From contig CANJBO010000009.1 of NCBI GenBank assembly GCA_947472995.1, forward strand, positions 1 to 60,376: a stretch of DNA of 60,376 nt, given 5' to 3'. The notes under the pieces were generated by a model, which saw only the letters and a program-made list of their open reading frames with translations, ran no database searches and had not been told where the DNA came from. How positions within the stretch are numbered: position 1 is the first letter of the stretch; each line of letters begins with the position of its first letter. Below are positions 57,442 to 58,523 of this stretch, in pieces. A program made the translations under genes and the position numbers. This DNA is from Chloroflexota bacterium. Lineage in GTDB: Bacteria; Chloroflexota; Dehalococcoidia; UBA2979.

Positions 57442-57470
57442 TTGACGGTTAACTTAGTGCGAACTAAGTT
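57442..57470 (+). promoter_or_regulatory. Promoter with overlapping palindromic operator, before the metal-binding lipoprotein gene
   Basis: TTGACG (57442-57447), 17 bases, then TAAGTT (57465-57470). The palindrome AACTTAGT-GCGA-ACTAAGTT (57451-57470) fills the spacer and the -10. Its 20-bp size, AT-rich arms and position match DtxR/IdeR-type iron boxes in style (TTAGGTTAG..CTAACCTAA), although the exact consensus differs. The downstream gene is a siderophore-type binding protein, so repression by metal is a good hypothesis. Confidence 0.65.
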
Positions 57471-57503
57471 CCGACGGTGCATGACCATACATCGGAGGGC
57501 TTC

Positions 57504-58523
57504 GTGGACACTTCGCTGCGCTCGATTCGATCTCGGGGCGTGCTGCTCCTCGCTGCGGCGGCGCTCCTCGCGACGCTCGCAGCCTGCGGGAATGCGGGCA
57601 CGGTTCCCGCGAGCACCTCGACTCCGGCCGGATCGACGGGCACCGCCACGCCGGCCGCTGCCACCGTGTCGCGCGAGTTCAAGCACGAGCTGGGGACGAC
57701 CACCATCACCGGTGTGCCGAAGCGCGTCGTCGTGCTCGAGTACTCCTTCGCCGACAATCTCGGGACGCTGGGCATCAATCCGGTCGGGTACGCCGTGGAC
57801 GCACCGCCGGCGTACATCGCGAAGTACACGAAGGATGCCGGCGCCGTCGCCGTGGGCACCCGGGCGGAGCCGAACCTCGAGGCGATCGTCGGGCTGAAGC
57901 CCGACCTGATCCTCGGCGACCTCCAGCGTCACGAGAAGATCTACGCGAAGCTCAGCGCGATCGCGCCCACGCTCGTCTTCAACAGCCTCCGAGGCAGCTA
58001 CCAGGATCAGCTCGATACGTTCGGGATCATCGCCGATGTCCTCGGGAAGAAGAGCGACGCCACGCCGCTCGTGAAGACGCACCAGGCCGCCTACGCAGCC
58101 GCGAAGAGCACGAAGTCCGACGCTCCGCCGATCCTGATCGGCGTGGTGAGTGGCAGCGGCTTCACCGCCCACACGAACGAGAGCTTCATGGGCTCGTTCC
58201 TCGAAGGACTCGGCCGGACGAACGCGCTCAAGCCTCGTAACGGGGAGACGCAGTACACGCTGGGACTCGAGGGCATCGCGAACGTGCGCCCCGGCGCCAT
58301 CGTGCTGCTCTGTGAGCCCGGCGTGCAGAAGAACGTCGACGACCTCGCGGCATCGCCCGTGTGGAAGGCCTTCGACGCGACCAAGAACAACCGGATCTAC
58401 ATGTACGACGTGAACCTGTGGTCGAAGGGCCGCGGCCTGATCGCCTACGACCTGATCCTCGCCGACGCGATCGAGAGCGGGCTCCTCAAGGACGTCCCGA
58501 GTACCCGGACCAGCTGCCGCTGA
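57504..58523 (+). CDS. Iron-siderophore/haem-type ABC substrate-binding lipoprotein
   Basis: A 339-residue exported protein with a lipoprotein signal (LATLAAC), an Ala/Thr/Ser/Pro linker and the class III binding-protein (FecB/FepB-like) fold: KRVVVLEYSFADNLGTLGI, VGTRAEPNLEAIVGLKPDLILGD, and a long helix linking the lobes (about 195-220). The ligand is likely a ferric siderophore or haem. The GTG at 57504 follows GGAGGG. No permease or ATPase genes follow in the window, so it is an orphan receptor here. Base use is somewhat less GC-rich than neighbours. Confidence 0.87.
   Translation: MDTSLRSIRSRGVLLLAAAALLATLAACGNAGTVPASTSTPAGSTGTATPAAATVSREFKHELGTTTITGVPKRVVVLEYSFADNLGTLGINPVGYAVDAPPAYIAKYTKDAGAVAVGTRAEPNLEAIVGLKPDLILGDLQRHEKIYAKLSAIAPTLVFNSLRGSYQDQLDTFGIIADVLGKKSDATPLVKTHQAAYAAAKSTKSDAPPILIGVVSGSGFTAHTNESFMGSFLEGLGRTNALKPRNGETQYTLGLEGIANVRPGAIVLLCEPGVQKNVDDLAASPVWKAFDATKNNRIYMYDVNLWSKGRGLIAYDLILADAIESGLLKDVPSTRTSCR

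Follow-up and report, generated by a model that had tools for sequence, protein, structure and literature searches.

The palindrome that lies across the promoter of a siderophore-type binding-protein gene in the window, the whole 60,376-nucleotide stretch of DNA analysed here and contig C9 of a 1.78-Mb genome (55 contigs, 73% complete), very probably serves a metalloregulator of the DtxR/IdeR family as operator, its form TTAG-N6-CTAA being that of a half-site for a single dimer. This reading is built on sequence comparison, from which we infer the identity of the binding protein, its action as a repressor and the metal to which it responds. The kind of operator is already known; what appears to be new, as not found in the literature searched, is the recurrence of single-dimer sites, their altered first base, and regulators that lack Gln43 and carry an atypical metal site. 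The elements of the promoter region are the following:

57442 to 57447, forward strand: -35 hexamer TTGACG, 12 bases before TTAG (an offset of 11-13 in 8 of 23 site-gene pairs, see below)
57451 to 57470, no strand assigned: putative operator palindrome AACTTAGT-GCGA-ACTAAGTT, a perfect 8-4-8 inverted repeat of 20 bp, with no further match in the window at three or fewer mismatches and a match in 0 of 100 dinucleotide shuffles
57454 to 57467, no strand assigned: 14-bp core TTAGT-GCGA-ACTAA, a probable DtxR/IdeR single-dimer half-site with quintet base 1 changed in both arms, agreeing with 8 of 10 positions of TTAGG-N4-CCTAA; the genome's second copy has the same core
57465 to 57470, forward strand: predicted -10 TAAGTT, overlapping the right arm's CTAA; a weak match, with 3 of 6 consensus bases
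57494 to 57499, forward strand: probable ribosome-binding site GGAGGG, by eye
57504 to 58523, forward strand: iron-siderophore ABC binding lipoprotein, FecB/FepB-like, Peripla_BP_2, from profile matches; the longest open reading frame starts at GTG 57477

As the earlier note had described, the inverted repeat is perfect and stands between TTGACG and through TAAGTT; these two hexamers are 17 bases apart, so that the palindrome occupies most of the spacer together with the -10. It is not among the repeats listed by a search with a minimum arm of 12 bases, since its arms have only 8. The downstream product was also rightly recognised as a FecB/FepB-like lipoprotein: it matches Peripla_BP_2 (PF01497) with an E value of 8.5e-28, its N-terminus is lipoprotein-like (LAAC, by eye), and its top NCBIfam match, below the cut-off, is the Fe(3+)-dicitrate binding-protein subfamily. 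The designation "siderophore-receptor" promoter has to be corrected, the gene encoding a binding protein and not a receptor. By eye, translation more likely starts at GTG 57504, served by GGAGGG, than at GTG 57477. The gene occurs in 2 of 44 genomes of the order (this one and one at 31%) and in 2 of 393 of the class (this one and one at 39%); its nearest named relative, at 57%, is on a contig of a Chloroflexi MAG where the upstream region is cut off, and plasmid matches stay below 60%, the best mostly from Deinococcus. From its near-absence among close relatives the gene looks accessory or horizontally acquired, and upstream footprinting through its orthologues yielded little. In the window it sits between a HIT gene and the gene for RNase PH. 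In genome G019 a symmetrical ATTAGATCGATCTAAT directly follows RNase PH (L120, 1453), and this place and that in the window may be syntenic, since RNase PH adjoins both.

The closest described counterpart of the site is the half-site of Saccharopolyspora erythraea IdeR in PMC8464063 (Marcos-Torres et al. 2021). According to that paper, IdeR binds a half-site with one dimer, for which TTAGGNNNNCCTAA was proposed, and the 19-bp IdeR box consists of two such half-sites offset by 5 bp (PMC8464063). The window site has the two inverted quintets with the 4-bp spacer exact and keeps C2, T3, A4 and A5 in both arms; it differs in base 1 of both quintets, A instead of C, in outer bases that lengthen the dyad, and in standing before iron-uptake promoters and not the nuo cluster. 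Its score of 8 out of 10 is reached by 0.2% of random 80-mers from the window. The 19-bp IdeR/DtxR box TTAGGTTAGSCTAACCTAA, as given in PMC10317159 and PMC8464063, holds this half-site twice, and boxes of IdeR-repressed genes overlap the -10 or the start site (PMC10317159). Of these two dimer sites the window has one, the quintets of the second dimer matching at 0 and 1 of 5 positions and, in the other register, at 3 and 1 of 5. Hence the remark of the earlier note that the sequence is not the usual consensus applies to quintet base 1, while the rest corresponds to that half of the customary 19-bp box which a single dimer occupies. Changing C1 to T1 has no significant effect on SeIdeR binding while C2 stays, C1 to A is not among the variants described in the section concerned (PMC8464063), and the occurrence of half-sites in other species is left open (PMC10317159). 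Our search of the literature on half-sites and on Chloroflexi/Chloroflexota found no paper on this operator, and TTAGGNNNNCCTAA in PMC8464063 only.

The scan for further copies proposed in the earlier note located a second one before siderophore-transport genes, the kind of occurrence whose absence would, by that note, have told against the reading. TTAGTN4ACTAA occurs at exactly 2 places in the 1.78-Mb genome; the reversed control has 0, base composition predicts 0.05 per genome, and none turned up in 12 simulated genomes. The second copy, GTCTTAGTGCACACTAAGAT, is on contig C10 and has the same core as the window site; on one side it is flanked by two FecCD permease genes followed by a gene for a fused double FecE-like ATPase, and on the other by a divergent Suc_Fer-like gene. 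The looser pattern TTAGN6CTAA, at one mismatch or less, is found at 5 places (37 in the reversed control), of which the same two are exact; exact copies being limited to the window and C10 contexts, both lie at promoters of iron-siderophore transport genes. The ATPase on C10 (L003, 625-2277) is a protein of 550 aa with two FecE-like ABC ATPase domains head to tail, beside the two permease genes. On contig C3 (C3:57758, L081, about 1400-1540) a near-miss, TTAGTAGTATTTAA, and several TTAGT/ACTAA quintets lie upstream of a peroxiredoxin-like gene, which is a possible third member of the regulon.

Among relatives, the site is found before the FecCD gene in all three of the nearest FecCD orthologues, that of C10 itself and those at 72% (G303, of another family of the class) and 68% (G043), in the latter two with the permease gene on one side and a divergent Peripla_BP_2 gene on the other. 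TTAGN6CTAA is present at none of 27 more distant FecCD loci. Of 30 DtxR loci examined, 5 have a TTAGN6CTAA site and 25 have no exact one within about 1.5 kb; a further site belongs to a second DtxR locus of G021, about 100 bases before the gene. In three genomes of genus g10 the site follows the DtxR gene at a distance of 84-93 bases and precedes an iron-type binding protein, with a fourth (G024) showing a different arrangement and no site; in two genomes of genus g2 the distance from DtxR is about 1.2 kb and the site again precedes a gene of this type, and in G018 a perfect TTAGG-N4-CCTAA stands 97 bases after DtxR.

Over the 34 genomes outside g2 and g10-g12, a family scan with ATTAGN6CTAAT gave 9 matches and its reversed control 3; viewed loci of these 34 have a GC content of 0.64-0.74 (0.32-0.49 in the ten genomes of g2 and g10-g12, where matches were mostly left out of context viewing). 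Two of the nine lie at DtxR genes and one each at a Suc_Fer-like gene, a TOBE-containing ABC ATPase, an FTR1 permease and an iron-type binding protein; a seventh precedes a DUF5122 lipoprotein, a gene type with a site in G015 too, and two lie beside or before genes with no evident link to iron. The DUF5122 (beta-propeller) lipoproteins of two genera (L123, 1501 and L010, 1501) share the site as well as the TTGAC spacing and are a possible new member of the iron regulon. Binding proteins of SBP_bac_6 type would carry ferric iron, judging by their by-eye likeness to Fbp-type proteins and their DtxR neighbours; their NCBIfam matches are weak and to phosphonate-type models. It should be noted that the nitroreductase-like, hemL-like, peroxiredoxin-like, inositol-phosphate-synthase-like and aspartate-oxidase-like genes were so called by eye from translations, without Pfam.

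Some counts speak against this reading. TTAGTN4ACTAA is not enriched across the family (29 places against 71 in the reversed control, most of both in g2 and g10-g12; the contexts viewed leave out L008, L014-L019, L021, L024 and L025), and an exact CTTAGTN4ACTAAG is found in 6 of 393 genomes of the class, the five places in other genomes (L030-L034) not being at iron genes. With these counts and the 25 DtxR loci that show no site, the claim therefore rests on the contexts in GC-rich genomes, on the orthologues and on promoter geometry, and does not rest on counts as such.

As to this geometry, the 18 sites, when oriented by gene, form 23 site-gene pairs, and in 8 of these TTGAC stands 11-13 bases upstream of TTAG (the three g10 genomes included are close relatives and not independent), against a mean of 0.015 and a maximum of 1 over 195 control offsets. 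The 23 pairs leave out the class matches L030-L034, L013 (aspartate-oxidase-like), L118 (inositol-phosphate-synthase-like) and L120 (beside RNase PH), the near-misses L081-L083, the site L115 (G002, upstream of DtxR), and matches in other genomes whose context was not viewed. At sites with this spacing the -10 coincides with the right-arm CTAA, as it does in the window, and the sites thereby overlap iron-uptake promoters as those of a DtxR regulon do.

The genome's own 73%-complete assembly contains two Fur-family genes and no DtxR-family gene recognised by PF01325 or an alignment of six DtxR sequences, which is why the regulator of the window site is one that we infer. Of the family's 44 genomes 36 encode a DtxR-family regulator, as do 15 of the 15 good ones and all five congeners. 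The eight genomes with no DtxR match are 67-88% complete, and in two of them, G008 and G020, iron genes are preceded by sites; that the gene is missing from a partial assembly is therefore not strong evidence. We aligned 31 of the relatives' proteins to IdeR (30 loci, L051-L080, plus L012, from 40 DtxR rows of which 2 are fragments). His79, Glu83 and His106 are kept in all 31 and Glu105 in 30, while the sulphur ligands of IdeR, Met10 and Cys102, are found in none: 28 proteins have Asp10/His102 and 3 have Arg10/Ser102. Either pair is a predicted metal site of an uncharacterised kind, and these ligands do not reveal which metal is sensed. According to PMC8464063, Gln43 of IdeR makes the sole direct base hydrogen bond, to quintet base 1; the relatives' regulators have Gly (26), Ala (3) or Ser (2) there and Gln in 0 of 31. 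A hand count over the 11 sites that were not selected for base 1 gives C 12, A 5, G 5 and T 0 of 22; the tally over all 18 sites is biased, since several were found with patterns that fix A at this base. That the regulators have lost Gln43 would fit a tolerant base 1, as a correlation only.

Many bacteria use Fur as their usual iron repressor, and one of the genome's two Fur homologues might bind the palindrome. We consider this very improbable. The best agreement with a Fur consensus is 9 of 19 positions, which 34% of random 80-mers equal, and the sites in relatives adjoin DtxR-family genes. Readings as a Zur-like or PerR-like box were dropped as well, since the agreement with these consensuses is equalled by 36% (no better than chance) and 7% of random 80-mers, respectively. 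The earlier note had expected a DtxR/IdeR- or Fur-type operator; of this pair the former is upheld by half-site geometry, by the second copy and by recurrence before iron genes or beside DtxR-family genes in relatives, and the latter is not. Full symmetry of the 20-mer is typical of many dimeric repressors, and this, together with the assembly's lack of a DtxR gene, would also suit an unrelated dimeric regulator of MarR, TetR or Rrf2 type with a chance likeness to the half-site; with DtxR-family genes adjoining the sites in several relatives and a spacing exactly that of IdeR, we give this little credence. That the palindrome arose by chance and has no function, as its having just two copies in the genome might suggest, is hardly credible in view of the shuffles (0/100), the reversed control (2 against 0), the 12 simulated genomes with none, the only two exact TTAGN6CTAA in the genome, the sites in 3 of 3 nearest FecCD orthologues and the TTGAC offset (8/23 against 0.015).

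A DtxR-family regulator could also sense manganese, as MntR does, or another metal, the genes then answering to Mn and not to Fe. The box of Escherichia coli MntR, which regulates manganese uptake, has the same 8-4-8 layout and TAG-N6-CTA core as the window site, with different arms. For the group A regulators a thermophile MntR model gives slightly higher scores than DtxR does, with neither anywhere near its cut-off. The Asp that 28 of 31 regulators have at the Met10 position recalls MntR, which has Asp or Asn there according to PMC10317159; the Glu of MntR at the Cys102 position (same source) is absent, these regulators having His. Moreover, the targets are transporters of siderophore or ferric-iron type, FTR1 and Suc_Fer-like genes, not manganese transporters, and we regard regulation by manganese or another metal as unlikely.

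For the preferred DtxR/IdeR-type operator the mechanism would be as follows. With ample metal, most likely Fe2+, a single repressor dimer would sit on the two NCTAA quintets and, covering spacer and -10, exclude RNA polymerase; when the metal is scarce, the dimer would leave and the binding protein be expressed, presumably in step with the genes at the genome's other copy, namely the Suc_Fer-like gene and the FecCD/FecE transporter operon, which are unlinked to it. A broader proposal, to which we give somewhat less than even chances, is that the whole family controls its iron regulon through no other operators than single-dimer DtxR half-sites, and that the DtxR proteins reading them lack Gln43 and have a metal site neither IdeR- nor MntR-like (Asp10/His102).

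If true, the laboratory Q43A variant would have its counterpart in nature, with DNA read by shape and tolerance at the first base. In several genera of this little-studied family, iron-uptake genes are repeatedly preceded by half-sites, which often keep a constant place relative to the -35 and are paired with regulators naturally devoid of the residue that reads base 1, the very base that varies. Such natural pairs of site and regulator would make indirect readout by DtxR proteins testable, and the half-site pattern may be used for annotation of the iron regulon in these genomes.
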